Origin: Glutamicibacter sp. B1
GTDB taxonomy: Bacteria > Actinomycetota > Actinomycetes > Actinomycetales > Micrococcaceae
Direction of reading: 5' to 3'
Assembly (NCBI RefSeq): GCF_039602135.1
Contig: NZ_CP125942.1
Span: 1,116,001-1,180,000 of the forward strand
DNA length: 64,000 nucleotides
Of the stretch, positions 6,757 to 55,342 are shown one piece after another; the first letter of the stretch is position 1; every line of letters starts with the position of its first letter. The notes below the pieces were generated by a model. The model had not been told where the DNA came from. It saw only the letters and a list, made by a program, of their open reading frames with translations, and did not search any database. A program made the translations under genes and the position numbers.

Positions 6757-7434
6757 ATGCAGATTTTTCACACGCTGTTACCCGAGTCCATACGTGTAGT
6801 TGAAACGCGTTCAGAATTGGACCATGGGCAACGATACTGGCAAGAAGAACAGTACGTCGCCACCGCTGTAGAGTCTCGCCAACAAGAATTTCGCACCGTG
6901 AGGATTTGCGCGCGAGAGGCCTTGGCGGACTTTGGGTATGGGGATCATGTGCTGGTGCCTGATGCGCATCGGGCACCAGTATGGCCTGCCAATATTGTGG
7001 GCAGTATGACGCACTGTCCTGGCATGCGAGCGGCTGCGGTGGCTAGCTCCAGCCAGTTCGGCGGCATCGGAATTGATGCTGAACCACACGAGGTGTTGCC
7101 ACCAGAAGCGGTCGAGCTGATCCTCTTGCCTGCCGAACAGCAGGCGGTGGCACAGTTAGCGGCTGAAGATCCGAGCATCGCCTGGGACAAACTGATCTTC
7201 AGCGCCAAAGAAAGCGTCTTTAAGACCTGGTTCCCGTTAGCGAGGAAATGGTTAGATTTTCTCGAATGTGAAATCACGATAGACCAGCAGGCGAGAACAT
7301 TCTCCGCGCACCTACTGCGCACCGACACCCTTCACCAAGGCGTTGACCTGTCCCAGATTACTGGAACCTGGATGGCCGAGGGGAGTGTGGGTCAGGGCCT
7401 GTTGGCCACCGCGATCACCGTGCGATCAAACTGA
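6757..7434 (+). CDS. 4'-phosphopantetheinyl transferase (EntD/Sfp superfamily)
   Basis: 225 residues. Transfers the phosphopantetheine arm of CoA to the conserved serine of carrier domains. Both signature motifs are visible: GIGIDAEPHE (Mg ligands D107 and E109) and WDKLIFSAKESVFK (143-156, with the K-E-S box). The N-terminal REALADFG and SMTHCPG motifs are of the EntD subtype. No RBS of its own is obvious; translation may be coupled to the gene ending 9 nt upstream. The only carrier-domain protein in the window is the Pls-type NRPS 2.3 kb downstream, which is the likely client (inference). Confidence 0.92.
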   Translation: MQIFHTLLPESIRVVETRSELDHGQRYWQEEQYVATAVESRQQEFRTVRICAREALADFGYGDHVLVPDAHRAPVWPANIVGSMTHCPGMRAAAVASSSQFGGIGIDAEPHEVLPPEAVELILLPAEQQAVAQLAAEDPSIAWDKLIFSAKESVFKTWFPLARKWLDFLECEITIDQQARTFSAHLLRTDTLHQGVDLSQITGTWMAEGSVGQGLLATAITVRSN

Positions 7435-7440
7435 AACTAC

Positions 7441-8337
7441 TCAGAATTCTTCGCCGTGGGTAATGACCTTCGCCGCACGTCCCACAATGTGTGGGTCGGG
7501 CGAGCCGACCAGTTCGTGGTCTTTACCTTTGTAATCAAAGAGGTTCAGCACATGACGCATTGCCTGTAGGCGAGCACGCTTTTTGTCATTGGACTTCACC
7601 ACAGTCCACGGAGCATGATCTGTATCCGTCTTGAGGAACATTTCCTTTTTAGCTTCCGTGTACTTATCCCACTTATCTAGGGACTCGAGGTCCATAGGGG
7701 AGAGCTTCCACTGTCGTACCGGGTCGATACGTCGAATGGTGAAGCGGGTGAATTGTTCGCCAGCAGAGACCGAGAACCAGAACTTGATCAGATCAATGCC
7801 TTCATCCACCACAAGCTTCTCAAACAGTGGGGTTTGATTCAGGAAATGATCTACCTGTTCAGGGGTGCTAAATCCCATGACGCGTTCCACGCCGGCACGG
7901 TTGTACCAAGAACGGTCAAAGAGCACGATCTCGCCGGCTGACGGGAAATGCTGCACATAGCGCTGGTAGTACCACTGGGTGGACTCACGCTCGCTGGGCT
8001 TCTCCAAAGCAACAACTCGGGCACCACGTGGATTCAGGTGCTCGGTGAAGCGTTTGATCGTTCCACCCTTACCAGCGGCGTCACGGCCCTCAAAAACGAT
8101 CATGATGCGTCGGCCGTTGGCCTTGGCCCACTTCTGAAGTTTCAGCAGCTCAATCTGCAGTGCGCGCTTTTCAACCTCATAGGTGTCGCGGTCAAGCTTT
8201 TCATCGTAAGGGTAGTCCTCACGCCAGGTATCAACTACGCTGCCATCGGCGCGGAGCAACAATGGATCGTCATCATCGTCATCAAGTACCGTGAATCCGC
8301 GGAATGCTTCGTCGAGGAGGGGTATTTCTATACTCAT
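7441..8337 (-). CDS. ppk2: Polyphosphate kinase 2
   Basis: About 298 residues. PPK2 enzymes move phosphate between polyphosphate and nucleotides. The Walker A-type GRDAAGKGGTIKRF, the DRSWYNRAGVERVMGF motif (lid/Walker B) and the SPMDLESLDKWDKYTEAK block are all present, the pattern of the class I (NDP-phosphorylating) PPK2 family. The ATG at 8337 is chosen because everything upstream is non-conserved and would run into the aminopeptidase gene, which ends at 8412; AGG 10 nt upstream is a weak RBS. It lies convergent to the PPTase gene (6-nt gap). It could regenerate ATP for the adjacent NRPS, but that is only suggested by proximity. Confidence 0.93.
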   Translation of the reverse strand: MSIEIPLLDEAFRGFTVLDDDDDDPLLLRADGSVVDTWREDYPYDEKLDRDTYEVEKRALQIELLKLQKWAKANGRRIMIVFEGRDAAGKGGTIKRFTEHLNPRGARVVALEKPSERESTQWYYQRYVQHFPSAGEIVLFDRSWYNRAGVERVMGFSTPEQVDHFLNQTPLFEKLVVDEGIDLIKFWFSVSAGEQFTRFTIRRIDPVRQWKLSPMDLESLDKWDKYTEAKKEMFLKTDTDHAPWTVVKSNDKKRARLQAMRHVLNLFDYKGKDHELVGSPDPHIVGRAAKVITHGEEF

Positions 8338-8411: not shown

Positions 8412-9713
8412 TTAAGCTGGGAAGTCCGGCAGGGGCAGCTCGTTGAGCCAAGCTTGCAAGATGCGATCGACATCTACACCGGTTGCATGCTTTTTCATAT
8501 GCTCAATGAACTTCGGCGTATCGACATTGCCATGCTGATATGTGCCCGTCCAATCACGCAGCATCTCGTAGAAATCCTTCTCACCCAATGCAACATACAA
8601 GGCATACAACGTCAGGGCACCGCGCTTGTAGACACGATCATCAAACATATCTTTGGGCCCAGGGTCCCCGATGTTGATGTCCTGAGGTAGGGCCTCGAGC
8701 ATCTCCCAAGCATCGCGGGCACGCTGTTGTAGTGGCATAATCTTGGCGTATTCCGAATAGACCCACTCGCTGAAGCAAGCGAAGCCTTCGTTGAGCCAGA
8801 TGTATTTCCACCGTGTCGGAGTCAGCGAATTGCCAAACCACTGGTGCGCGAATTCGTGAGCAATCAGCCGTTGTGCTTCCCAATCCACGGACAGATGGTT
8901 GCGCCCGAAAATGCTCAACCCCTGGGCTTCCAATGGAATCTCAAGTTCGTCGTCAACCACCACGATCTTGTAATTCTCAAAGGGGTAGGGCCCAAACTTA
9001 CGTTCAAAGATCTCGGCCATCTGGCTTTGCTTGGCGAACGCGCCACGCACCGCTAGATCGCTGCCCGGCACCGAATATGCCAGCAGGCGATGGCCAGTAT
9101 CGAAGGCGATTTCGTTATAACGTCCGATCTGCAGGGTCGCCAAATAGGTGGCCATGGGTTCACGCTGTTCGTACACCCAGGTGTCTCGGCTGGCAGAACG
9201 GCGGTGAGCAACCATATCGCCATTGGCCACTACCCGGTACCCGGCATCGGTGGACACCTCAAAACGGTAGGAGGACTTATGGCTGGGGTGATCATTACAC
9301 GGGAACCAGGTTGACGCGCCGACCGGCTGACCTGAGACCAGAACCCCGTCAGTGAGTTCTTCCCATCCCACTTCTCCCCATTGCCCGTTATCTACGTTGG
9401 GGTTGCCACCATAACGTAGCTGAAGCTCCAAGTGTTCTCCGGCTTTGACCCGCTGCGGGGTGGAGAGCACAATACGGTGGTGCTTTTTGCTCACGGAAAC
9501 CTTGCGTCCCTGACAGGTGGCCTTGATGACCCTGAGCCCCTTGAGGTTCAGGGCGATCTCGTTGAGGTCTTCGAGGGCACGAATGCGAAGCATTGCTCGC
9601 CCATCAAGGTAGTTGCTGGCAAGTTTCACCACGAGGTTCACATCATAATGTTCCACCGTATAGGTTCCGGAGCCGTAGTGCTTGGTGTACTCATCTAAAA
9701 TGCGATGGTGCAT
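8412..9713 (-). CDS. M1 family zinc metallo-aminopeptidase, PldII-like position
   Basis: 433 residues, shorter than classical PepN because it stops after the catalytic domain. Zinc site HEFAH (286-290) plus NEGFA (E309), with H286, H290 and E309 as ligands. The exopeptidase GAMEN motif is replaced by EAQGL (262-266). The N-terminal beta-saddle domain covers about 1-225. I see no signal peptide or membrane span. The start lies 12 bp downstream of the Pls-type synthetase stop on the same strand, so the two are probably co-transcribed. In epsilon-poly-lysine-producing Streptomyces the poly-lysine-degrading enzyme PldII is a zinc aminopeptidase next to pls (recalled knowledge), so a role in trimming or self-protection from a cationic polymer is plausible but unproven. 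Confidence 0.9.
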   Translation of the reverse strand: MHHRILDEYTKHYGSGTYTVEHYDVNLVVKLASNYLDGRAMLRIRALEDLNEIALNLKGLRVIKATCQGRKVSVSKKHHRIVLSTPQRVKAGEHLELQLRYGGNPNVDNGQWGEVGWEELTDGVLVSGQPVGASTWFPCNDHPSHKSSYRFEVSTDAGYRVVANGDMVAHRRSASRDTWVYEQREPMATYLATLQIGRYNEIAFDTGHRLLAYSVPGSDLAVRGAFAKQSQMAEIFERKFGPYPFENYKIVVVDDELEIPLEAQGLSIFGRNHLSVDWEAQRLIAHEFAHQWFGNSLTPTRWKYIWLNEGFACFSEWVYSEYAKIMPLQQRARDAWEMLEALPQDINIGDPGPKDMFDDRVYKRGALTLYALYVALGEKDFYEMLRDWTGTYQHGNVDTPKFIEHMKKHATGVDVDRILQAWLNELPLPDFPA

Positions 9714-9725
9714 CGGTGGGTTGCC

Positions 9726-12700
9726 TCAGGCTTCCTGTGGTACTGGCTGTGCTTCTTGCGTTTCGGCGGTAGTGTTCCAGCGTACAGCGGGATTACCTCG
9801 CCAGTAGGTATTGGCAGGCAAGACTTCACCGCGCAGGATCAAGCTGGCAGGACCGGTGGTCGTACCCTCAGAAATCTGGGCGGCCGGCAGAATCACACTG
9901 TGTGGGCCCAGGGTTGCACCGGCTCCCAAGGTGACCGCGTCAATGGACATGATGCGATCGTGGAAGAGGTGGGTTTGCAAGACGGAGCCACGATTCACCG
10001 TGGCGTGATCTTCCAGGGTCACCAGATCCGCTTCGGGGAACCAATAGCTTTCGCACCAAACACCGTGGCCGATCTTGGCGCCCTGTGCACGCAAGAACCA
10101 GACCAGTGCCGGAGTTCCTGAAGCCAGGCGTGCAAACCACTGAGCACAGACCAATTCGGTGAAGGAATCAACCATTTCGGTGCGCCAGATAAATGAGCTC
10201 CACAGGGTGTGCTCACCGGAACGGATCGGACCAACAACCAGCCACTTAGCTACTACGGCAACCGCTGCGGCCACGGCCCCAGCAAGTACCAGAACAGCAC
10301 CAGAAAGCAGCATGCTGACCCAAATGTTGGTGAAGCTAGCCATAGCGGCAAGGGCCCAGAGCACTCCTCCGGCAATCGCCACAGTAGTGAAGACCGCCAA
10401 GGAACGAGTCAGCTCCCAGAACGAACGCATGATCTTCAGTTTCAACCCAGGACGGTAGGTACGTTCGGACTCAGCTTCCACCGTGGTGCGGCGCAACTTA
10501 TTAGGTGGCGAACCGATCCACGAGGTACCGGCTTTCATCTTCTTCGGGGTGGCCGAGAGCACCGCGATCAATGAACGCTTCGGGACTCGACGACCAGCAT
10601 GCAGGATGCCGGAGTTACCCAGGAAGGCCTTCTTGCCCACACGAACCGGGGCGATATGCATCCAGCCACCACCAAGCTCATAGGAGGCGACCATGGTGTC
10701 ATCGGCCAGGAACGCTCCCGAAGAGATGGTCGTCATCTTCGGGATCAACAGGACGGTCGAGATTTCCACGTCGCGTCCCACCTTCGCTCCCAAGAGGCGC
10801 AGCCAGATTGGAGTGAACAGTGAAGCGTAGAGCGGGAAGAGCTGATCGCGGGCGGTATCAAGTACACGTTCGGTGGCCCATGCCTGCCAACCGACCCGTG
10901 AGGTGACCGGGTGCCACCCCTCAACCAGGCCGATAGACAGCAGACGCACGATGAGGATGGTCAACACCATGCTCGACAGGAACCAGACGATTGCTGCCAG
11001 AAGGACGGCAGGGATGAAACGCCAACCAATGTCGGCCAGTGAATGTACCGGGCGCAGCATCGGGGTGACGGCGGAGAACGCCAACACCACAGGGATCCAC
11101 TGCCACAGATTCAATACGATGGAACCAAGACCTGCCAGAACACGTGGCAGCTTGCGGTAGACCGGTTCGGCCTCTGGCCATTTTGGTTTGGCCTTGGACT
11201 GACGGGTGGCCGGGGAACCGGCATAGCGTGAATGATCGCGGGTGCTGCCGTACACCGCGGAACCAGCATCGACAATGGTGTGGGCGCCGATCACGGCTCC
11301 TGGAACCAAGATACTGCGGGCACCGATGGAGGCGTGGGCACCGACCTCGATGGCACCAACGTGCAGCTTATCGCCGTCGATCCAGTAACCACTGACATCG
11401 ACCTCGGGTTCGATGGTCGCGCCGGGGCCCACGGTGAGCATGCCGGTCACCGGTGGCAAGCTGTGCAAGGTGGCAGTCTTATCGATCTTCGCACCCAGCA
11501 TGCGGGCGTACCACGGAAGAAGTGGCGCACTGGACAGTGAAATTGGGTCCACCACATCAGCTACGTGCTGCGCTAACCAGAGTCGCAGGTGCACCGAACC
11601 GGAACGCGGATAAACACCAGGTGTTAGTCCGTGCAACAACAACTTATTGGCCACGATGGATAGGACCATTCGTCCTACCGGTGTGACAAAGAGCAGCCAC
11701 AATCCGGCGATCACATACCACGGGGTGGGTAGGGCTTCTTCAAAGACTCCCAGAGCGACCAATGCGGCGTGGCCGATGAGGAGGTAGGTGAACCAACGTA
11801 GGCCTGAAAGGATAAAGAGTGGGAAGGAAACCAAGGTCTGCGCCAGCTGCGTCATGCGTTTGGTACGGCGCACGGTGCGTGGTTCTACCGGTTCACTACT
11901 CACCTGTTGCCCACCGAGGTATTCCACCAGGGCACCAAAACGTGGGTAGTCATAGAGCTCTGCCACCGTCATATCCGGGTAGCGAACGCGCAACGCGGAG
12001 ACTAATTGGGCTGCTGAGAGCGATCCACCACCGGCAGCAAAGAAGTCCGCGTCAAAGCCGGACACCGAAGCACCCAAAGCACCTTGCCAGGCTTCGGCAA
12101 TGAACTCACCAACTTCATCAAGCTGTGGAAGTTCCCCGGAAGAGTCATTGCTTTCGGCTCCCGGCAAAGGCCAAGGCAAGGCGTTGCGGTCGACCTTGCC
12201 ACTGGTTTTCATCGGCAGGTGATCCATGACTGCCAAGATAGGCACCATGGGTGCTGGCAAGTCTTCGAGCAGTGCGGTGCGGGCCGCGGAAAGATCGTAG
12301 TCTTCGGGGGCTTGGAGGTAGCCGACGAGGATCTTGTTGCCGGTCGCGGTTTCACGCACGGCCACCGCGGCGGAGGAGACACCGGCCAAGGAATTCAGGG
12401 CCGCATCAATTTCGCCGAGTTCGATGCGGCGTCCACCGATTTTCACCTGGTCATCCACGCGTCCGATGAAGATCAGACCCAGCGGGTCGTTGACCACCAT
12501 GTCGCCGGAGCGGTAGGCGCGATCCCAGCCGAGGGTGGGCATCGGCGCATACTTTTCTGCGTCCTTTTCCGGATCAAGGTAACGGGCTAGTCCTACGCCG
12601 CCGATGATCAGTTCACCGGATTCGCCCTCGGCCACAGGGATGCCCTGCGGGTCAACGACTGCAAGGTCCCAGCCGGCTAGTGGTAGGCCGATGCGGACCG

Positions 12701-13661
12701 GCAGGCTGCCATCCATGGTGGCACCACAAGCTACTACTGTGGCTTCGGTCGGACCGTAGGTGTTCCAGACTTCGCGTCCGTCGGTGGCCAAACGTCCGGC
12801 CAGTTCTGGTGGGCAGGCTTCGCCACCAAAAATCAGCAGGCGGACCGAGTCCAAGGCTTGGGCTGGCCAGAGGGCTGCCAAGGTGGGGACGGTGGAGACC
12901 GCGGTGATCGAACGTGAAATCAGCCAAGGACCTAGGTCCATGCCGCTGCGAACGAGGGCGCGCGGGGCCGGGACCAGGCAGGCGCCATTACGCCAGGCGA
13001 TCCACATTTCTTCGCAGGAAGCGTCGAAGGCTACCGAGAGTCCGGCGAGCACACGGTCGGTGGTGTTCAGCGGGTCAGCAGGAAGGAACATCTGCGCTTC
13101 GGCGTCGACGAAGGCTGCCGCCGAACGGTGGGATACGGCAACACCCTTAGGCTTGCCGGTGGAACCGGAAGTGAAAATAATCCAGGCGTCGTCTTCAAGC
13201 CCGGGTAGCCGAGGCGAAGCAAAAGGCTTGGGCCTCTGGGCGTTGACCACGATGGTGTCGGTGCCCTTGACGATGCCGGCGACTTCGGCCTCGGTGAAGA
13301 CCGTTTTGGCTCGTTCATCCGGGTCGTCGGCATCCACTGGTACGTAAGCGGCGCCGATCCAAAGGATCGCGAGGATCCATTCGTACAGGTGACGGGTGCC
13401 CGATTCGACGCGCACGCCAATGCGGTCACCGGCACCTAGGCCCTGCTCATGCAGGCGCAGGGCCTTGGCTTTGACCTCATCAAGTAGCTCGGCATAACTC
13501 TCGGTCCGCTCGCCATCATCAATGGCCGGCGCATCAGGGTGTGCCTGTGCGGTGGCCTGGAGGATGTCGATGAGGGTCCGGGGAGCCGGGGCTAGGGCAC
13601 CGGAAGGAAATTGGGGGGCGTAAATCTCTTCATCCGGCGCAGGAGTTTGATCGTTGTTCAT
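9726..13661 (-). CDS. pls: Pls-type membrane non-ribosomal peptide synthetase (poly-amino acid synthetase)
   Basis: About 1311 residues with the architecture of epsilon-poly-L-lysine synthetase. Adenylation domain: A3 IIFTSGSTGKPKGVAVSH near 163, A10 SGKVDRNALP near 484. Thiolation domain: Ser about 547 in GGGSLSAAQ. Then six membrane segments alternate with three left-handed beta-helix-like blocks. There is no condensation or thioesterase domain. By hand alignment to GrsA the specificity residues read D-A-E-S-I-G-T-V-V-K; the Glu after FDASC would suit a basic side chain. It acts in the membrane. I chose ATG 13661 as start; in-frame ATGs at 13676 and 13772 exist upstream. The M1 peptidase follows after 12 bp. 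Confidence 0.9.
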   Translation of the reverse strand: MNNDQTPAPDEEIYAPQFPSGALAPAPRTLIDILQATAQAHPDAPAIDDGERTESYAELLDEVKAKALRLHEQGLGAGDRIGVRVESGTRHLYEWILAILWIGAAYVPVDADDPDERAKTVFTEAEVAGIVKGTDTIVVNAQRPKPFASPRLPGLEDDAWIIFTSGSTGKPKGVAVSHRSAAAFVDAEAQMFLPADPLNTTDRVLAGLSVAFDASCEEMWIAWRNGACLVPAPRALVRSGMDLGPWLISRSITAVSTVPTLAALWPAQALDSVRLLIFGGEACPPELAGRLATDGREVWNTYGPTEATVVACGATMDGSLPVRIGLPLAGWDLAVVDPQGIPVAEGESGELIIGGVGLARYLDPEKDAEKYAPMPTLGWDRAYRSGDMVVNDPLGLIFIGRVDDQVKIGGRRIELGEIDAALNSLAGVSSAAVAVRETATGNKILVGYLQAPEDYDLSAARTALLEDLPAPMVPILAVMDHLPMKTSGKVDRNALPWPLPGAESNDSSGELPQLDEVGEFIAEAWQGALGASVSGFDADFFAAGGGSLSAAQLVSALRVRYPDMTVAELYDYPRFGALVEYLGGQQVSSEPVEPRTVRRTKRMTQLAQTLVSFPLFILSGLRWFTYLLIGHAALVALGVFEEALPTPWYVIAGLWLLFVTPVGRMVLSIVANKLLLHGLTPGVYPRSGSVHLRLWLAQHVADVVDPISLSSAPLLPWYARMLGAKIDKTATLHSLPPVTGMLTVGPGATIEPEVDVSGYWIDGDKLHVGAIEVGAHASIGARSILVPGAVIGAHTIVDAGSAVYGSTRDHSRYAGSPATRQSKAKPKWPEAEPVYRKLPRVLAGLGSIVLNLWQWIPVVLAFSAVTPMLRPVHSLADIGWRFIPAVLLAAIVWFLSSMVLTILIVRLLSIGLVEGWHPVTSRVGWQAWATERVLDTARDQLFPLYASLFTPIWLRLLGAKVGRDVEISTVLLIPKMTTISSGAFLADDTMVASYELGGGWMHIAPVRVGKKAFLGNSGILHAGRRVPKRSLIAVLSATPKKMKAGTSWIGSPPNKLRRTTVEAESERTYRPGLKLKIMRSFWELTRSLAVFTTVAIAGGVLWALAAMASFTNIWVSMLLSGAVLVLAGAVAAAVAVVAKWLVVGPIRSGEHTLWSSFIWRTEMVDSFTELVCAQWFARLASGTPALVWFLRAQGAKIGHGVWCESYWFPEADLVTLEDHATVNRGSVLQTHLFHDRIMSIDAVTLGAGATLGPHSVILPAAQISEGTTTGPASLILRGEVLPANTYWRGNPAVRWNTTAETQEAQPVPQEA

Positions 13662-13909: not shown

Positions 13910-14878
13910 TTACGGTAACAAGATGACCTTTCCGGTGGTGGTGCGCGATTCTAGTGCCGTGTGTGCGGCGCCCGCTTCAGAAAGCGGATACTGGGCTCCG
14001 ATGCGTACATCGATCTTGCCGGTGGCCACCCAGCCGACCATGTCGCCAAAGCGCCAGTGCATTTCCTGCTGTGAGGTGAGGAAGTCTGCCAACTTTGGGC
14101 GAGTGACGGTCAAGGATCCGCCGGCGTTTAAGCGTTGTAGGTCAAAGGCGGGGACCTGACCGCTGGCCCCGCCAAAGAGCACCAAGGTTCCACGGCGTCG
14201 TAATGCTGCCAATGAGGTATCAAAGGTATCTTTACCGATCCCGTCATAGACCGCATGAACACCTTGGCCGTCGGTGACCTTGTCGACGGTTTCGGCGACC
14301 TTGTCATAGTCCACCACGTAGTCGGCACCGGCGGCCTTGGCCAGGTCCTTCTTTTCTTGGGTGGACGCAGTGGTGATCACGGTGGCGCCCTTGAGCTTGA
14401 GCAGCTGGGTGAGGATCAGTCCCACACCGCCGGCGCCAGCATAGGTGAGGATGACATCGCCTTCATGGACCATATAGCTGGAGTGAACCAGGTAGTGCGC
14501 GGTCATTCCCTGTAGCGGTAGGGCCGCAGCGATATGTAGATCAACTGAGTCCGGGACCTTGGCGGTCAAATCCGCAGGGACCAGGGCGTATTGCGAATAC
14601 CCAGCGACGCCTGAGGCGGTGGCAACCCGGTCGCCGAGCGCGAAGTTTTGTACGCCTTCACCGATTTGCTCTACCACTCCTGAGAATTCTGAGCCCGGGA
14701 CAAAGGGGTAGTCAACGGTGTACACGCCACTGCGCTGATAGGTTTCAATAAAGTTCACTCCGGTGGCTGCGACCTTGATCAGTAACTCACCGGCGCCCGG
14801 GGTAGGAACCGGGATTTGGGTTTGCTGCAATCCAGTGGCGTCGGTTGGCTCGTTAACCACGATGGCTTGTTGCTGCAT
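13910..14878 (-). CDS. qor: NADPH:quinone reductase-type zinc-free alcohol dehydrogenase family protein
   Basis: 322-residue medium-chain dehydrogenase/reductase. The N-terminal GroES-like domain contains the quinone oxidoreductase pattern TGVNFIETYQRSG and PFVPGSEFSGVV; the Rossmann motif YAGAGGVGLILTQLLK follows, and RPKLADFLTSQQE marks the QOR family. The catalytic zinc ligands of alcohol dehydrogenases are missing, as expected for this group. It reduces quinones or enones with NADPH. RBS GAGGAG lies 10 nt upstream of the ATG. It is divergent from argC, with which it shares a 175-bp promoter region, and does not look functionally linked to the neighbouring NRPS. Confidence 0.92.
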   Translation of the reverse strand: MQQQAIVVNEPTDATGLQQTQIPVPTPGAGELLIKVAATGVNFIETYQRSGVYTVDYPFVPGSEFSGVVEQIGEGVQNFALGDRVATASGVAGYSQYALVPADLTAKVPDSVDLHIAAALPLQGMTAHYLVHSSYMVHEGDVILTYAGAGGVGLILTQLLKLKGATVITTASTQEKKDLAKAAGADYVVDYDKVAETVDKVTDGQGVHAVYDGIGKDTFDTSLAALRRRGTLVLFGGASGQVPAFDLQRLNAGGSLTVTRPKLADFLTSQQEMHWRFGDMVGWVATGKIDVRIGAQYPLSEAGAAHTALESRTTTGKVILLP

Positions 14879-48906: not shown

Positions 48907-50046
48907 TTAGAGTGCGCGCTGCTCCGAGCCGTTGTAGGCAGAGAGCGGGCGAATCAGCGCGTTAGCCGCGCGCTGTTCGAAGATATGGCTAGTCCAACCA
49001 GTAATACGTGCCGCGATGAAGATCGGGGTGAACATCTCGGTATCGAAGCCCATCAGGTGATAAGTTGGCCCGGCAGGGTAGTCCAGGTTCGGCTTAATCG
49101 ACTTCGCCTCATCCATGGCTGCTTCCAAACCGTCGTATAGCCCCAACATTTCGTGGCGACCATAGTGCTCGATCATCCGGTCCAATGCGGCTTTCATGGT
49201 CGGCACACGGGAATCGCCGTGCTTGTACACTCGGTGTCCGAAGCCCATGACCTTCTTTTTCGCAGCCAGGGCTTCTTCCATCCAAGCCTTGGCGCGTTTC
49301 GCCGCATCTTCACGGGACTCGTCCTTATTGATGCCAATTTCAGTGAACGTATGCATCACTGCTTCATTGGCCCCGCCATGAAGGGGTCCCTTGAGTGCAC
49401 CAATGGCACCGGTGACGGCCGAATGAAGATCCGACAGGGTTGAGGTGATCACTCTGGCGGTGAACGTCGAAGCGTTAAACGAGTGTTCCGCGTAGAGGAC
49501 CATGGAAACTCGGAATGCATCAACTACCTCGGGGGCGGCTTCTTCGCCAAAAGTCATCCAGAGGAAGTTAGACGAGTAATCCAGATCCTCGCGTGGTGCA
49601 ACAACGTCCAGTCCGCGGCGCCGGCGCTGATCGTAGGCAACAACAGCTGGGAAGGCCGCGAAGAGCTCTTTGGCTTTGAGCAGCTCAGCCTCCGGTGAAG
49701 AATTCTCCGCTTCAGGATGATTGGCGCCGATGACCGAAACTGCGGTGCGGCCAACGTCCATCGGATGGCAGTCGGTGGGGAGCAGATCGATAGCAGCCTT
49801 GACCCGCGGATCCAAAGCTCGATTGGCTCTTTCGAACGCACTGAACTCGGTGAGTTCACTTTGGGAGGGTAATTCGCCGGTCCACAACAGGAGTGCGACC
49901 TCTTCGAAAGATTTGTTGGCGGCCAGGTCCTGAACCGGGTATCCGCGATATAACAGTGAGTTCGTTTCTGGGTTGACCTTGGAGACGGCGGTGTAGTCAA
50001 CGACGACGCCTGCCAGGCCTTTTTTGATTTCCTCGGTGGTAGTCAT
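48907..50046 (-). CDS. prpC: 2-methylcitrate synthase / citrate synthase II
   Basis: 379 residues. Condenses propionyl-CoA with oxaloacetate (2-methylcitrate), with residual citrate synthase activity. Active-site motifs PLHGGANEAVMHT, GFGHRVYKHGDSR and the catalytic Asp region near MGFDTEMFTPIFIAARITGW are present. The N-terminus (KKGLAGVVVDYTAVSKVNPET) is typical of PrpC rather than GltA, and the neighbours prpB/prpD confirm the role. RBS GAGGAG upstream. Confidence 0.93.
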   Translation of the reverse strand: MTTTEEIKKGLAGVVVDYTAVSKVNPETNSLLYRGYPVQDLAANKSFEEVALLLWTGELPSQSELTEFSAFERANRALDPRVKAAIDLLPTDCHPMDVGRTAVSVIGANHPEAENSSPEAELLKAKELFAAFPAVVAYDQRRRRGLDVVAPREDLDYSSNFLWMTFGEEAAPEVVDAFRVSMVLYAEHSFNASTFTARVITSTLSDLHSAVTGAIGALKGPLHGGANEAVMHTFTEIGINKDESREDAAKRAKAWMEEALAAKKKVMGFGHRVYKHGDSRVPTMKAALDRMIEHYGRHEMLGLYDGLEAAMDEAKSIKPNLDYPAGPTYHLMGFDTEMFTPIFIAARITGWTSHIFEQRAANALIRPLSAYNGSEQRAL

Positions 50047-50088
50047 TCTTACTCCTCTTCATTGCCGGAGAACTAATGCTTTGCTGGC

Positions 50089-50115
50089 GCGCCGGCCGGG
50101 AATACCGACCGGCGC
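50089..50115 (-). other. Stem-loop in the prpB-prpC intergenic gap
   Basis: GCGCCGG-C-CGG (50089-50099) pairs with CCG-A-CCGGCGC (50105-50115), one mismatch, 5-nt loop. No T-run, so it may stabilise the prpDB transcript or reduce read-through into prpC. Confidence 0.5.
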
Positions 50116-50142
50116 ACGGGGTGTTGCTGATGTGGCGCGTTC

Positions 50143-51072
50143 CTAGAGGTTCGCGCTATTGGAATCAATGTCCAGGGTCGGGACCTGGAAATTGAAAATT
50201 CCGGTATCAAAGCGGTTGTAAGCTTCGTAGTCCACGAGCTCATAGAGACGTGATCTAGTTAACATGTTATCCACTTCGCGTTGTTGGGTGCCATCTTCGC
50301 TGATGGCATCCAGTACACGCTCGGCCGCACCCATGGCGCTACGCAACAGGGTGACCGGGTAAATGATCAATGCGACCCCGGCGTCGGCCAATTCTTGGCG
50401 GTTGAAAAGTTCAGACTTGCCGAACTCCGTCATGTTCGCCAGAACTGGAACATCCACCGCGTTACATACTGCCTCAAACTCGGCGACGTTCTTCATCGCT
50501 TCGGGGAAGATCGCATCGGCGCCGGCATCCACCATGGCCTTGGCGCGGTCGATCGCTGAGTCCAGTCCTTCGACCGCACGAATATCAGTGCGGGCCATGA
50601 TCAGGAAGTTCTCATCGATACGTGCGTCGGCAGCGGCTGCGATGCGCTTGAGCATGGTGTCGGTATCCACCACGTTCTTGCCATCTAAGTGACCGCAGCG
50701 TTTCGGATTGAACTGGTCCTCGATGTGGCAGCCGGCAAGACCTGCGTATTCCAACTCCTGGATGGTGCGCGCCACGTTCATGGGCTCGCCAAAACCGGTG
50801 TCGGCATCCACAATCGCCGGCAGGTCACTCATGCGGGCGATCTGCCCAGCACGCGTGGCCACCTCGGTGAGTGAAGTCAAACCGATGTCTGGCAGGCCTA
50901 GATCATTGGCGAGTACCGCGCCGGAGATATAGATTCCGTCGAACTGTTTCTCGCTGATGAGCTTGGCCGAGAGCGGATTGAAGGCGCCGGGGAACTGGCG
51001 GGCAGCCCCGGGAGTGAGCATTTCACGTAGTGCCTGACGCTTTGCTGCGGGGGTGGTTGTTGAGTACAGCAT
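50143..51072 (-). CDS. prpB: 2-methylisocitrate lyase
   Basis: 309 residues of the isocitrate lyase/PEP mutase superfamily. Splits methylisocitrate into pyruvate and succinate. Metal and active-site motifs IVDADTGFGEPMNVARTI and KRCGHLDGK (the K-x-CGH signature, Cys as catalytic base) at about 123. ATG directly abuts the prpD stop codon, so translation is coupled. Confidence 0.96.
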   Translation of the reverse strand: MLYSTTTPAAKRQALREMLTPGAARQFPGAFNPLSAKLISEKQFDGIYISGAVLANDLGLPDIGLTSLTEVATRAGQIARMSDLPAIVDADTGFGEPMNVARTIQELEYAGLAGCHIEDQFNPKRCGHLDGKNVVDTDTMLKRIAAAADARIDENFLIMARTDIRAVEGLDSAIDRAKAMVDAGADAIFPEAMKNVAEFEAVCNAVDVPVLANMTEFGKSELFNRQELADAGVALIIYPVTLLRSAMGAAERVLDAISEDGTQQREVDNMLTRSRLYELVDYEAYNRFDTGIFNFQVPTLDIDSNSANL

Positions 51073-52590
51073 TTAGAACAAGCCCTTCGGAGCGGCTTCC
51101 AGATCGATCACGCCGGCGGCGGCCACGATATTCAGCTGGTCTAGTTCGCCAGCGCCAAGGTTTTCCAGGTTTTCGGCAGCGGCGATGAAACGGTCGATTT
51201 CCGCCTCGTCCACCAGACCGGTGGCCAGGGTGCGGAACTTGTTGATGTACTGTTCGCGGGCGAAGGGGCGAGCGCCCAGTGGGTGGGCGTCGGCCACGGC
51301 GATTTCATCGGTGATGATGGTGCCATCGTTCAGGGTAATCTCTACCGAACCGCCGAAGGCCTTCTCGGAGATGTCGAGCGAGTGGTAACGACGGGTCCAC
51401 TCTGGGTCTTCTTCGGTGGTGACCTTGTGCCACAACTCTACGGTGTCGGCGCGTCCAGCACGCTGCGGCGAGTAGGAATCCACGTGGTGCCACGCACCGT
51501 CCTGCAGGGCGACCGTGAAGATGTACGGGATGGAGTGGTCCAGGGTCTCACGCGAAGCGGTTGGATCGTATTTCTGTGGGTCGTTGGCTCCGGAGCCGAT
51601 GACGTAGTGGGTGTGGTGGCTGGTCTTGATTAATACCGACTTCACGTTCTTTGGATCGGCGGCTTCTGGGTGTTCGCCGTGCAGCTTGCGGGCAAGGTCG
51701 ATCCAAGCCTGTGCCTGATATTCGGCGGAGTGTTCCTTGGTGTAGGTGTCCAGGATGGCTCGTTTGGCTTCGCCTGCTTCTGGCAGTGGCACCTCATAGG
51801 CAGCATCCGGACCATCGAGCAGCCAGGCGATGACGCCGTCTTCACCTTCATAGATCGGCACTGGGGAAGTCTGTCCGCGCATGGCGCGGTCCGCGGCTTC
51901 GACGGCCATCTTGCCGGCGAAAGCTGGAGCATGTGCCTTCCAGGTGGAGATCTCGCCCTTGCGCGATTGGCGGGTCGCGGTGGTGGTGTGCAGGCCTTGA
52001 CCGACGGCCTGGAAGATCGTTTCGATATCTAGACCCAGTAGGGTGCCGATGCCGGCAGCTGCCGATGGGCCGAGGTGTGCCACGTGATCGATCTTGTGCT
52101 TGTGCAAGCAGATGGCTTTGACAAGGTCCACCTGGATTTCGTAGCCGGTGGCAATGCCTCGGATGAGGTCCTTGCCCGATGCGCCGGCGTGCTGAGCCAC
52201 GGCAAGGATCGGTGGAATGTTGTCGCCTGGGTGGGAATACTCGGCAGCAAGGAAGGTGTCGTGGTAGTCGAGCTCGCGGACTGCTACACCGTTGGCCCAA
52301 GCAGCCCACTCTGGGGAGACTTTGTCGGTGATGCCAAAAACAGAAGCGCCAGCGCCACCGGACGATGGCCCGTGGGTCAGTGCCTGCGCGCGGGCGGCGA
52401 TGATTGGTCCACGGTTCAGCGAAGCAATGGCTACCGAGGCATTGTCAATAATGCGGTTGATGATCATCTCGCGCACCTCGTCGGTAACTTCTACCGGGTC
52501 GGCGGCGACGGTGGCGATCTTGTGAGCCAGTTGGTCTTCACGGGCTAAGTTTTCTTCGGAGCGGTAAACGCGTACAGGATGCTTGATCAT
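51073..52590 (-). CDS. prpD: 2-methylcitrate dehydratase (MmgE/PrpD family)
   Basis: About 505 residues. Dehydrates 2-methylcitrate in the methylcitrate cycle. Family marks: [37 protein letters not shown], and the C-terminal dimerisation region ending [13 protein letters not shown] 52590 has AAAGG 8 nt upstream; another ATG at 52596 overlaps the stop of the gntR gene but sits too close to that RBS. Operon order gntR-prpD-prpB-prpC. Confidence 0.95.
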
Positions 52591-52592
52591 AT

Positions 52593-53240
52593 TCATTGCC
52601 TTTCTGAACCGGCCGAATGGGCCATGATGTGGGTTAAAGATTGGTGAAGATGCACGATCGTGGCCGCGGAAGCGACCTCGGGGTTTCCGCTAGCGATGGC
52701 TCGTGCGATGGCAGCGTGTTCACGCGCGGATTCTTTGAGGCGGCGCGGATTGTCCTTGGCCATGCGGCGCACCCGTTGCAGGTTCACCCGTAGCGTGCGT
52801 AGAGCGCTGGACAGGTACTTGTTGTTTGCCGCCTCGTCGATGGAGTCGTCCAGTAGTTGAGTCAGCTGGTAGTACGCCTCGCGAGATCCTGGGCTCTTCA
52901 CTTCGTGGGCGGCCGCGTCAAAGCGTCCGGCTAATTCAGCGAAACTCTCACGGTGCGTTGAGCGAGCAGCTTCTTTGGCGCTGGCGCATTCCAACGCTAC
53001 GCGCAGCACAAAGAGGTCTTCGACGTGGTCATCACTGACTTCCGAAACGACCGTGCCTCGTCCGCGCTGTTGTACTGCCAAGCCGTCGGCGACCAATCGG
53101 CCCAGCGCCTCACGCACCGGTGTGCGTGAAACTCCTAGGCGTTCTGATTGCTCGACTTCTGCAAGTACGGTGCCCGGAGCTATGCGCCATTCGACGATGT
53201 CGGTGCGCAGACTTTCGTAAGCCTTGTCACTTGCCCTCAT
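52593..53240 (-). CDS. GntR family (FCD) transcriptional regulator of the prp genes
   Basis: 215 residues. N-terminal winged helix ([31 protein letters not shown]) with the RTPVREAL recognition motif, followed by an all-helical FCD ligand-binding domain. Such regulators respond to carboxylates. First gene of the prpDBC operon and divergent from prpE; two identical TGTATACAT elements in the divergent region are its likely operators. It replaces the sigma54-type PrpR of enterobacteria. Confidence 0.93.
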
Positions 53241-53246
53241 ACTGCA

Positions 53247-53322
53247 ATTGTATACATAGAATTCTCGAAATTGGGGAAAGTGGCAAAAAATTCCGACTTG
53301 CTCGCAGTTTGTGTATACATTG
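53247..53322. promoter_or_regulatory. Paired GntR-type operators between prp operon and prpE
   Basis: TGTATACAT occurs at 53249-53257 and again at 53312-53320, both with a GTATAC palindromic core as in FCD-type GntR operators. They are 63 bp apart (six helical turns), one near each divergent promoter. Confidence 0.75.
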
Positions 53323-53425
53323 CTCTTGCGATGCTGTGATCGGGGTCATAGTGTTAAAGCCGAGGGCAATCTTGCCCACTCATGCAGGTGCCGGGCGATG
53401 ACGCCCGCGTCAGGAGGAAAGAACC

Positions 53426-55342
53426 ATGGCACAGGAATATCGTCGGGCCTTCGCCCAGGCCACCAACGACCCAGCTAGTTTCTGGCTAGAAGCAGCTAAA
53501 GACCTTCAGTGGGATACCGCACCACTTATAGCGATCGACGATTCCCGTAAGCCACTGTATTCATGGTTCCCAGACGGACAACTAAACCTCTCGAACAATG
53601 CACTGGACCGGCATGTGGCGGCGGGCCGGGGCGAGAATATTGCCCTGATCTACGATTCCGCGATGCTCGGGAGCGTTCATAAATACAGCTATGCGCAGCT
53701 ACTGCGTGAAGTTGAAACCTTCGCTGGCGTGTTGGTCGCCCGCGGCATCACCATGGGAGATCGCGTTCTGATTTACCTGCCCATGATCCCGCAAGCGGTC
53801 ATCGCCATGCTTGCTTGCGCCCGACTTGGGGTCGTGCATTCTGTGGTTTTTGGTGGTTTTGCCCCTAAAGAGTTGGCGGCGCGCATCACTGACTGTGCAC
53901 CGGTCGCGATCATTACAGCCTCCGGCGGCATAGAACCGAGTCGCCGCATCGAATACCTGCCTGCGGTCGCTGAAGCGCTGTCGTTGGCGCAACCAGCGGT
54001 CAAAGATGTGATTGTTGCTCACCGCGACGGGTTCGAACATGAGATCTCCGAGTATCAGAACCAACCCATCAATGGCCAAAATATCACCTGGTTGGATTGG
54101 GATCAGCAGGCGCGCGAGGCCAGCCCGGCCGGTGCAGTATCGCTGCCCTCCACCCACCCGCTCTACGTGTTGTATACCTCGGGCACGACCGGGGCGCCCA
54201 AGGGGGTCGTGCGCGATACCGGTGGTTACGGGACCGCGCTGCAATACTCGATGAACGCGATCTACGACGTGCACCCGGGGGACACCATGTTCACCGCCTC
54301 CGATGTGGGCTGGGTGGTAGGGCACTCCTATATTGTGTACGCACCACTGATCGCCGGCGCTACCACGGTGCTTTACGAGGGCAAGCCCGTGGGCACCCCG
54401 GATGCCGGAGTCTTTGGTCGAATTATCGAAGACCATAAGGTCACCATGATGTTTACCGCACCCACGGCCCTGCGCGCAGTGCGCAAGGCTGACCCGGCAG
54501 GTCAGCTGATCGCCGGTCATGATCTTTCCAGTTTGCGGTCCTTGTTTGTTGCCGGCGAGCGCTTGGATCCAGATACCTACCACTTTGCCACCGAGCTATT
54601 TCAGGTTCCGGTGGTGGATAACTGGTGGCAAACCGAAACTGGGTGGCCGATCGCCTCCAATCCTTTGGGGCTAGAAGAGTTGCCGGCCAAGGCGGGATCG
54701 CCCACCACTCCGGTGCCCGGTTTTGACGTTCAGGTTCGTGATGCCTTAGGTGAAGAACTGCAGGCGGGGCAAGAAGGGAATATTGTTGTACGACTGCCCC
54801 TGCCTCCGGGTGCGTTGACCACGCTCTGGGGTAATGATCAGCGGTTTATTGACACCTATCTATCGCAGATCGAGGGCTGCTATCTGACCGGAGACTCGGG
54901 GTTCCTGGACGAGGACGGGTACCTGTTTGTGATGGGTCGTACCGATGATGTCATCAACGTCTCCGGGCACCGGTTGTCCACCGGGGCCATGGAGCAGGTG
55001 TTAGCCAGTCATCCTGCGGTCGCCGAGTGTGCGGTCATTGGGCTGGCCGATGCCCTGAAGGGCCAACGGGCCAGTGGGTATGTGGTGCTGAAATCAGGTG
55101 TAGCCATCGAGCACGACGCGCTCGCCAAAGAAATTATTGCCCTAGTGAGACAACATATTGGTGCGGTGGCTGACTTTCGTGAAGTGACGGTGGTTTCGGC
55201 CTTGCCAAAGACCCGTTCGGGCAAGATCTTGCGCAAAACTATGCGCCAAATCGCCGATGGTAAAGAATACACAGTTCCCTCAACCATTGAGGATGTGGCG
55301 GTACTCGATGATCTGGTTCCGTTATTGCGCCCCGGAACGTAG
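53426..55342 (+). CDS. prpE: Propionyl-CoA synthetase
   Basis: 638 residues of the acyl-AMP ligase family. Activates propionate to propionyl-CoA, which feeds PrpC. P-loop-like A3 motif YTSGTTGAPKGVVRDTGGYG at about 249 (the RDTGGYG variant marks PrpE against AcsA), GDSGFLDEDGYLFVMGRTDD, and A10 KTRSGKILRKTM with the catalytic Lys near 603. RBS GGAGGAAAG. Transcribed away from gntR-prpDBC. Confidence 0.95.
   Translation: MAQEYRRAFAQATNDPASFWLEAAKDLQWDTAPLIAIDDSRKPLYSWFPDGQLNLSNNALDRHVAAGRGENIALIYDSAMLGSVHKYSYAQLLREVETFAGVLVARGITMGDRVLIYLPMIPQAVIAMLACARLGVVHSVVFGGFAPKELAARITDCAPVAIITASGGIEPSRRIEYLPAVAEALSLAQPAVKDVIVAHRDGFEHEISEYQNQPINGQNITWLDWDQQAREASPAGAVSLPSTHPLYVLYTSGTTGAPKGVVRDTGGYGTALQYSMNAIYDVHPGDTMFTASDVGWVVGHSYIVYAPLIAGATTVLYEGKPVGTPDAGVFGRIIEDHKVTMMFTAPTALRAVRKADPAGQLIAGHDLSSLRSLFVAGERLDPDTYHFATELFQVPVVDNWWQTETGWPIASNPLGLEELPAKAGSPTTPVPGFDVQVRDALGEELQAGQEGNIVVRLPLPPGALTTLWGNDQRFIDTYLSQIEGCYLTGDSGFLDEDGYLFVMGRTDDVINVSGHRLSTGAMEQVLASHPAVAECAVIGLADALKGQRASGYVVLKSGVAIEHDALAKEIIALVRQHIGAVADFREVTVVSALPKTRSGKILRKTMRQIADGKEYTVPSTIEDVAVLDDLVPLLRPGT

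Follow-up and report, generated by a model that had tools for sequence, protein, structure and literature searches.

A probable epsilon-poly-L-lysine synthetase of Glutamicibacter sp. B1 and its linkage with M1 peptidase, polyphosphate kinase and phosphopantetheinyl transferase genes

The pls gene and the domain layout of its product

We analyzed a 64,000-nucleotide stretch of the genome of Glutamicibacter sp. B1 (positions 1,116,001 to 1,180,000 of contig NZ_CP125942.1, RefSeq assembly GCF_039602135.1), hereafter called the window; "the genus" and "the family" stand below for Glutamicibacter and Micrococcaceae, respectively. The minus strand of the window carries a pls gene (9726..13661), which we consider, with high confidence, to encode an epsilon-poly-L-lysine synthetase in a unit with the genes of an M1 peptidase and a polyphosphate kinase 2 (PPK2), convergent with a gene for a phosphopantetheinyl transferase (PPTase). 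The open reading frame (ORF) of pls starts with ATG at position 13661, ends with the stop codon at 9728-9726 and encodes 1311 amino acids (aa); the mechanical ORF call begins at a TTG codon and gives 1348 aa, and the ATG version was used.

In silico analysis of the predicted protein (Pls) distinguished an adenylation (A) domain, a carrier (T) domain and a C-terminal part with three lobes (C1, C2 and C3) and six membrane helices. The Pls/PosA family is defined by its C-terminal domain, for which the NCBIfam model TIGR02353 ("Pls/PosA family non-ribosomal peptide synthetase") is available. This model scored 630.5 bits over Pls residues 607-1292 (curated cut-off, 423.1 bits), far beyond chance. 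The A domain (approximately residues 22-501; 12159..13598, minus strand) was recognized by Pfam AMP-binding (200.1 bits, residues 35-360), and the T domain (approximately residues 519-584; 11910..12107, minus strand), with the phosphopantetheine-binding Ser547 within a GGGSL motif, by Pfam PP-binding (38.2 bits, residues 520-582). The Hexapep family scored slightly below its threshold (26.3 versus 27), and neither condensation nor thioesterase domains were found in Pls by the Pfam scan.

The C-terminal polymerisation domain (residues 600-1311; 9729..11864, minus strand) contains three pairs of hydrophobic stretches, as judged from the hydropathy scan. It was modelled with AlphaFold2 using 65 aligned sequences (mean predicted local distance difference test score 89.7; predicted template modelling score 0.88). 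The model places six long helical spans, some of them broken, at model residues 3-37, 49-76, 238-270, 280-310, 474-511 and 514-544, with each of the three helix pairs followed by a predicted beta-rich block. The top Protein Data Bank (PDB) matches of this model in a Foldseek search were left-handed beta-helix proteins (maltose O-acetyltransferase, AntD, LpxA/LpxD and GlmU), which cover the model in part, with template modelling scores by target of 0.13 to 0.56 among the matches listed. The sequence profile of the same region gave matches to serine and maltose acetyltransferases and to gamma-carbonic anhydrases. A sequence-only reading of this DNA had proposed, giving no strand for the interval 9726..13661, a Pls-type synthetase of A-T architecture lacking condensation and thioesterase domains, with six membrane spans and three beta-helix blocks. 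Each of these elements was confirmed: the Pls assignment by TIGR02353, the A-T order by the Pfam scan, and the spans and blocks by the hydropathy pairs, the AlphaFold2 model and Foldseek; the interval therefore holds a genuine gene for a Pls/PosA-family protein, located on the minus strand.

Acyltransferases of the left-handed beta-helix type form trimers in which the active sites are located between subunits, and C1-C3 may accordingly be pictured as a pseudo-trimer formed by one chain, with a working site that would involve the third block. In that block the motif QTHLF-D-R (residues 1229-1236) is present, whose residues Q1229, T1230, H1231, L1232, F1233, D1235 and R1236 are invariant in the 65 sequences. 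The equivalent stretches of the first and second block, aligned by eye, are SGYWIDGD and ASYELGGG, with Tyr in place of His1231; other conserved histidines, e.g., H691, are present in the alignment. A comparable structure prediction has already been published for PosA (PMC10522769); here and below, papers given by PubMed Central (PMC) number are cited from their accessible parts.

The ten specificity-code positions of the A domain were assigned from conserved motifs and from alignment to the solved structure 7wew ("Epsilon-poly-L-lysine synthase"). Residues at positions 213, 214, 217, 256, 277, 279, 301, 309, 310 and 489, numbers that we take to be those of GrsA, read D-A-E-S-I-G-T-V-V-K. The A domain of 7wew shares 62% identity with that of the window protein over 487 residues and is equal to it at all ten code positions, i.e., by sequence the lysine pocket of the known Pls is present. 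With 619.6 bits, 7wew was by far the top match among solved structures, the next being a two-module gramicidin synthase (379.9 bits), while the PosA chain 8g95 reached 181.7 bits. The structure match names only the molecule; we take 7wew to be the enzyme of Streptomyces albulus. The code DAESIGTVVK was found in 95 of 97 aligned rows (the window, 95 loci, several of which represent the same genomes fetched twice, and 7wew), and the other two rows carry DAESIGTVIK.

In enzymes of this family, code position 2 is occupied by Ala in the case of lysine, by Met in the ornithine-specific PosA and by Phe in enzymes using shorter diamino acids (PDAP and PDAB) (PMC10522769). Since the window Pls has the same code as 7wew, and Ala at this chain-length position, its substrate can be narrowed to L-lysine as the likely one, and the enzyme very probably links lysine units into epsilon-polylysine, a natural food preservative. 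The sequence-only reading had derived the same code, now recovered at the same ten positions through the 7wew alignment, and had proposed that lysine (or ornithine or diaminobutyrate) is activated to form a cationic isopeptide polymer outside Streptomyces. The first proposal is supported in its narrower, L-lysine form, and the sequence speaks for the second, whereas the occurrence of such synthetases outside Streptomyces, although correct, had already been reported (PMC8117764).

Neighbouring genes and their conservation

The gene located 12 bp downstream of pls on the same strand (8412..9713) encodes an M1 zinc peptidase of 433 aa (Pfam Peptidase_M1, 107.8 bits) with an intact HEFAH-18-E motif. 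In S. albulus, the gene of the epsilon-polylysine-degrading peptidase, pldII, overlaps pls by 4 bp (PMC4361855), and PldII is described as located outside the membrane and as required for self-protection (PMC9223678). Judged from this description and from gene position, the M1 peptidase is a probable counterpart of PldII, acting in degradation and self-protection, so that the gene pair expected of an epsilon-poly-L-lysine synthetase locus occurs here. Among 80 named relatives, 76, including five Streptomyces/Kitasatospora loci, have an M1 gene in the same orientation directly after pls; these 80 are the best of 179 matches and lean to close kin. The exceptions are L070, where the M1 gene lies farther off, and L071, L103 and L113, where none was found. 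Arthrobacter sp. NIO-1057 (99%) is the closest of the named relatives, and strains of Glutamicibacter and Arthrobacter come next (81-91%). One of the 80 loci (L114) comes from a contig labelled Vibrio cholerae strain 35D and carries pls and M1 genes with 60% and 50% identity, respectively; this record, probably contaminated or mislabelled, is included in the totals of 80 and 97 and excluded from alignments A1 and A2.

The next gene on the same strand (7441..8337), 74 bp after the M1 gene, encodes PPK2 (298 aa; the start codon ATG at 8337 was preferred over the ORF beginning with TTG at 8451). The protein matches the PPK2 equivalog TIGR03707, which we take to denote class I PPK2, with 376.5 bits against a cut-off of 301.8, and contains the Walker A motif GRDAAGKG and the DRSWY motif. 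The linkage of PPK2 and pls was examined in 94 pls-positive genomes (80 from outside the genus, taken from those with listed coordinates, and 14 of the genus), where pls-positive means a TIGR02353 match. A TIGR03707 PPK2 is encoded in 77 of them, and in 40 of these 77 it lies, among the matches listed, within 10 kb of the TIGR02353 match; by a rough estimate that assumes about 1.2 kinase genes in a 4-Mb genome, such proximity would be expected by chance in about half a genome. As many as 38 of the 40 linked PPK2 genes, distributed among nine genera in the matches listed, are located downstream of pls on the same strand, and the pls frames of the 24 such cases outside the genus measure 1313-1591 aa. 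In the 14 loci of the genus and in nine linked loci of other genera (L142-L150), pls and PPK2 are separated by the M1 gene. Among the matches listed from openly accessible literature, there were engineering papers and no report of a natural grouping of pls with a polyphosphate kinase gene.

Two of the 40 linked PPK2 genes are on the opposite strand, and one of them (genome G097) adjoins a Pls-type protein that has no A domain. Other orientations were observed in Corynebacterium phoceense (L103) and C. uropygiale (L113), with PPK2 near pls on the opposite strand, and in Arthrobacter rhizosphaerae (L054), with PPK2 upstream of pls; these pairings perhaps have separate origins.

On the plus strand, convergent with PPK2 and ending 6 bp from it, is the gene of an Sfp-type 4'-phosphopantetheinyl transferase (6757..7434; 4PPT_N 88.3 bits and ACPS 52.9 bits, both above the cut-off). 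It is the only PF17837 match in the genome of the window strain (G000), which has two PF00550 carriers: Pls and a 108-aa ORF of acyl-carrier-protein size. A sole PF17837 match located next to pls, together with just two carriers in the genome, indicates that this PPTase very probably serves Pls. In other genera, a PPTase above the Pfam cut-off was found beside the M1 gene in six of ten scanned loci, three with PPK2 (L142, L146 and L147) and three without it (L151, L152 and L153). In the remaining four, the M1 neighbour was a weak, sub-threshold PPTase (L144 and L148), a GPP34 gene (L149) or gave no match (L156).

TIGR02353 matches above the cut-off occur in 14 of 18 genomes of the genus and in 140 of 245 genomes of the family; the copy numbers per family genome are at least those found among the matches listed. 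Within the genus, PPK2 is present in all 14 pls-positive genomes and in none of the four pls-negative ones; the 14 are not independent of each other, and perhaps the same applies to the four. PF17837 was detected in 11 of the 18 genomes, comprising ten of the 14 pls-positive ones and, among the pls-negative, only a fragment in genome G007, while the pls-positive genomes G002, G010, G012 and G017 have no PF17837 but a second PF01648 match. PF01648 was counted in nine genomes: there are two or three matches in each of the five pls-positive ones, a single match in G003, G008 and G009, and a single match in addition to the fragment in G007.

The G007 fragment belongs to a deletion scar (L139:11231-12011) in which the beginnings of pls and of the PPTase gene are fused. 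What is left encodes Pls residues 1-83 (80% identity) directly adjoining PPTase residues 2-180 (58% identity), the two facing each other, and neither the rest of pls, the M1 gene, PPK2 nor the end of the PPTase gene was found between the fragments. The scar outlines a lost unit, in that most of pls, M1, PPK2 and the PPTase end were apparently removed together; it is known from one draft genome, in which an assembly error is possible.

Upstream of pls lies a quinone reductase-like gene of the zinc-binding dehydrogenase family (QOR; 13910..14878, minus strand), which is retained in the four pls-negative genomes of the genus and is probably a conserved flank that is not part of the function. The tRNA scan of the window found 0 genes. 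Elsewhere in the window (48907-55342), a methylcitrate-cycle-like group of citrate synthase family, PEP mutase/isocitrate lyase family and MmgE/PrpD genes was observed, accompanied by a divergent acetyl-CoA synthetase-like gene.

A second, distantly related Pls paralogue (L132:5211-9098 and L133:10997-14833), with the code DAESIGTVIK and 48% identity to the window Pls in the best segment, occurs in two genomes of the genus; no match to the window M1 or PPK2 was found in the 20 kb around these genes. Furthermore, genomes G097 (L134:7552-10722) and G168 (L135:7492-11103) encode Pls-type membrane domains that are accompanied by three or four tandem carrier motifs and lack adenylation core motifs (L134 was covered by a whole-protein family scan). 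The gene following this protein in L134 is of the DUF222/HNH type, and ORFs of approximately 1040-1160 aa in the family match list may resemble these A-domain-less proteins. The QTHLFHD motif was found neither in them nor in the distant match L157, and hence it marks the Pls group, not the whole family.

Weighing of the alternative explanations

Several observations speak against the interpretation of the locus as an active epsilon-polylysine unit that includes a kinase. Both C. variabile, the source of a functional Pls, and C. glutamicum carrying its pls gave no detectable polymer, according to the accessible part of the report (PMC8117764), so the window locus may be silent. An obvious hydrophobic export start was not seen by eye in 16 M1 sequences (L050 was partly matched), unlike what the published extracellular position of PldII would suggest. 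As for the kinase, at the cut-off applied no PPK2 was detected in 17 of the 94 pls-positive genomes, and in 37 of the 77 with PPK2 it lies beyond 10 kb from pls (draft contig ends can hide some linked cases), which indicates that PPK2 is not generally required. Moreover, PPK2 closely follows the M1 gene only in this genus and in one other (g23).

These kinase data leave room for the possibility, in our view somewhat doubtful and yet to be taken seriously, that PPK2 is an unrelated neighbour and that, as in Streptomyces, the functional operon is made up of pls and the M1 gene, assisted by the PPTase. This would explain why 6 of 15 representative loci (from 16 fetched in other genera, L142-L157, with the distant match L157 excluded) have pls and M1 without PPK2 in the fetched piece. 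It would also agree with the M1-PPK2 gaps, which in the nine linked representatives outside the genus are below 0.1 kb in g23, about 0.8 kb in six loci and 4.3 and 7.1 kb in two, i.e., 0.8 to 7 kb in eight of nine, with several gaps filled by an opposite-strand gene; within the genus, one of 14 loci has a wider gap. In the Pls tree (40 rows, 15 of them PPK2-linked), the arrangement changes about four times, which suits an accidental neighbour, but the linkage is clustered, as shuffled trees gave 12.3 changes. The linkage is possibly of early origin with later losses. An unrelated PPK2 is harder to reconcile with the 38 same-strand downstream cases and with the co-loss of PPK2 and pls within the genus.

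We also considered whether PPK2 simply accompanies the pheT-argC site. Whether or not PPK2 is present, pls has QOR or argC on its upstream side in 13 of the 15 representative loci. Among 20 control genomes without a TIGR02353 match (E <= 1e-80), 10 carry PPK2, and in none of the nine pls-negative genomes having both genes was PPK2 seen near argC (four on the same contig, far apart; five on separate contigs). The candidate was therefore rejected: although QOR or argC usually flanks pls, the kinase follows pls, not the site.

Another explanation concerns the product: a lysine-activating enzyme could make short oligomers or a cell-bound modification, with antimicrobial activity being incidental. 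The failure to obtain polymer from C. variabile cells fits this, as does the in vitro product of PosA, which has 7-12 units (PMC10522769). We nevertheless regard it as improbable, because the C. variabile enzyme expressed in S. coelicolor yields epsilon-polylysine matching 26-35 residues (PMC8117764).

Even less probable is a synthetase of delta-poly-L-ornithine (PosA-like) or of a diaminobutyrate or diaminopropionate polymer, supplied with ornithine by the arg genes. Just upstream of the pls region are argC, argJ, a class III aminotransferase gene (probably argD) and argF, and the code of Acinetobacter baumannii PosA was likewise first matched to a bacitracin lysine domain (PMC10522769). However, the PosA code is DMEHNGTVSK, in which Ser at position 9 binds ornithine (PMC10522769); the window Pls has Ala, not Met or Phe, at position 2 and Val, not Ser, at position 9, and its A domain is far closer to 7wew than to PosA. 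In addition, the four pls-negative genomes of the genus retain argC and argJ at this position. Ornithine from the neighbouring arg genes was rejected as the substrate on the basis of the pocket code and this retention. An epsilon-poly-beta-lysine synthetase fed by lysine 2,3-aminomutase, which would share the family and the backbone chemistry, is extremely unlikely, since its code, DGESISVVNK (PMC10522769), differs from DAESIGTVVK and no aminomutase gene was found among the 11 neighbouring ORFs scanned, direct neighbours included.

Proposed function and its meaning

Enzymes of the Pls/PosA family act through adenylation, carrier loading and repeated amide formation involving the membrane domain. 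By homology, the preferred reading of the locus as an epsilon-poly-L-lysine synthetase unit would comprise the following steps: (i) the PPTase arms Ser547 of Pls; (ii) the A domain uses ATP to activate L-lysine, which it then transfers to the carrier; (iii) the three-lobed membrane domain forms an amide bond between the carrier-bound lysine and the epsilon-amine of either a free lysine or the chain being extended, a step perhaps located in the third beta-helix, the sole block of the three with His at the matching place; (iv) the polymer is released to the outside; and (v) the M1 peptidase trims or removes it, which would provide self-protection. PPK2 would probably regenerate ATP from polyphosphate for this costly reaction, in which adenylation releases AMP and pyrophosphate. 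The export step and the role of the kinase are, like the catalytic steps, inferred, while the architecture, code identity, conserved neighbourhood and co-loss were observed directly.

The window Pls resembles that of S. albulus in its A-T-C1C2C3 layout, its code and its A domain (as compared with 7wew), as well as in the degrading-peptidase gene that comes next in the pls operon (PMC4361855). It differs in having a non-filamentous actinobacterial host, a PPK2 gene located after the peptidase gene and an adjacent PPTase gene. By description, the Pls of C. variabile (WP_041630296.1) is similar in its coryneform host, architecture and pls-peptidase operon, but the accessible part of the report mentions no polyphosphate kinase or PPTase at that locus (PMC8117764), and its product was proved experimentally, whereas that of the window protein is predicted. 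PosA (delta-poly-L-ornithine synthetase of A. baumannii; PDB 8g95-8g98) belongs to the same family and has the same domain order, but differs in its code, its ornithine substrate and its single-gene operon (PMC10522769).

Pls enzymes were found earlier in Corynebacterium, Brevibacterium, Arthrobacter, Glutamicibacter and other genera, and the pls-peptidase operon has also been described (Jiang et al., 2021; PMC8117764); consequently, the window Pls is not of a new kind. What appears new, to a moderate degree, is the neighbourhood containing the kinase and the PPTase. We tentatively propose, as an idea that may well not hold in full, that Micrococcaceae possess a four-part unit, losable as one piece, in which ATP for Pls is replenished by a linked PPK2 (or the kinase controls the amount of polyphosphate encountered by the polycation) alongside a dedicated PPTase and the M1 peptidase. 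Because PPK2 is lost together with Pls, its role could be tested by a single gene deletion, and the asymmetric His motif of the third beta-helix offers a concrete target for the unsolved polymerisation step.

In S. albulus, PPK2-driven ATP regeneration is man-made: PPK2B of C. glutamicum introduced together with an AMP phosphotransferase raised the epsilon-polylysine yield by 21% (PMC10012588). In the window, PPK2 is naturally located downstream of pls, which suggests that nature may already use this ATP-supply trick. With this locus, one more probable polylysine producer is recognized in a genus that does not form filaments, as foreseen by earlier work, and, if the four-part unit is real, polyphosphate would pay for epsilon-polylysine in Micrococcaceae.

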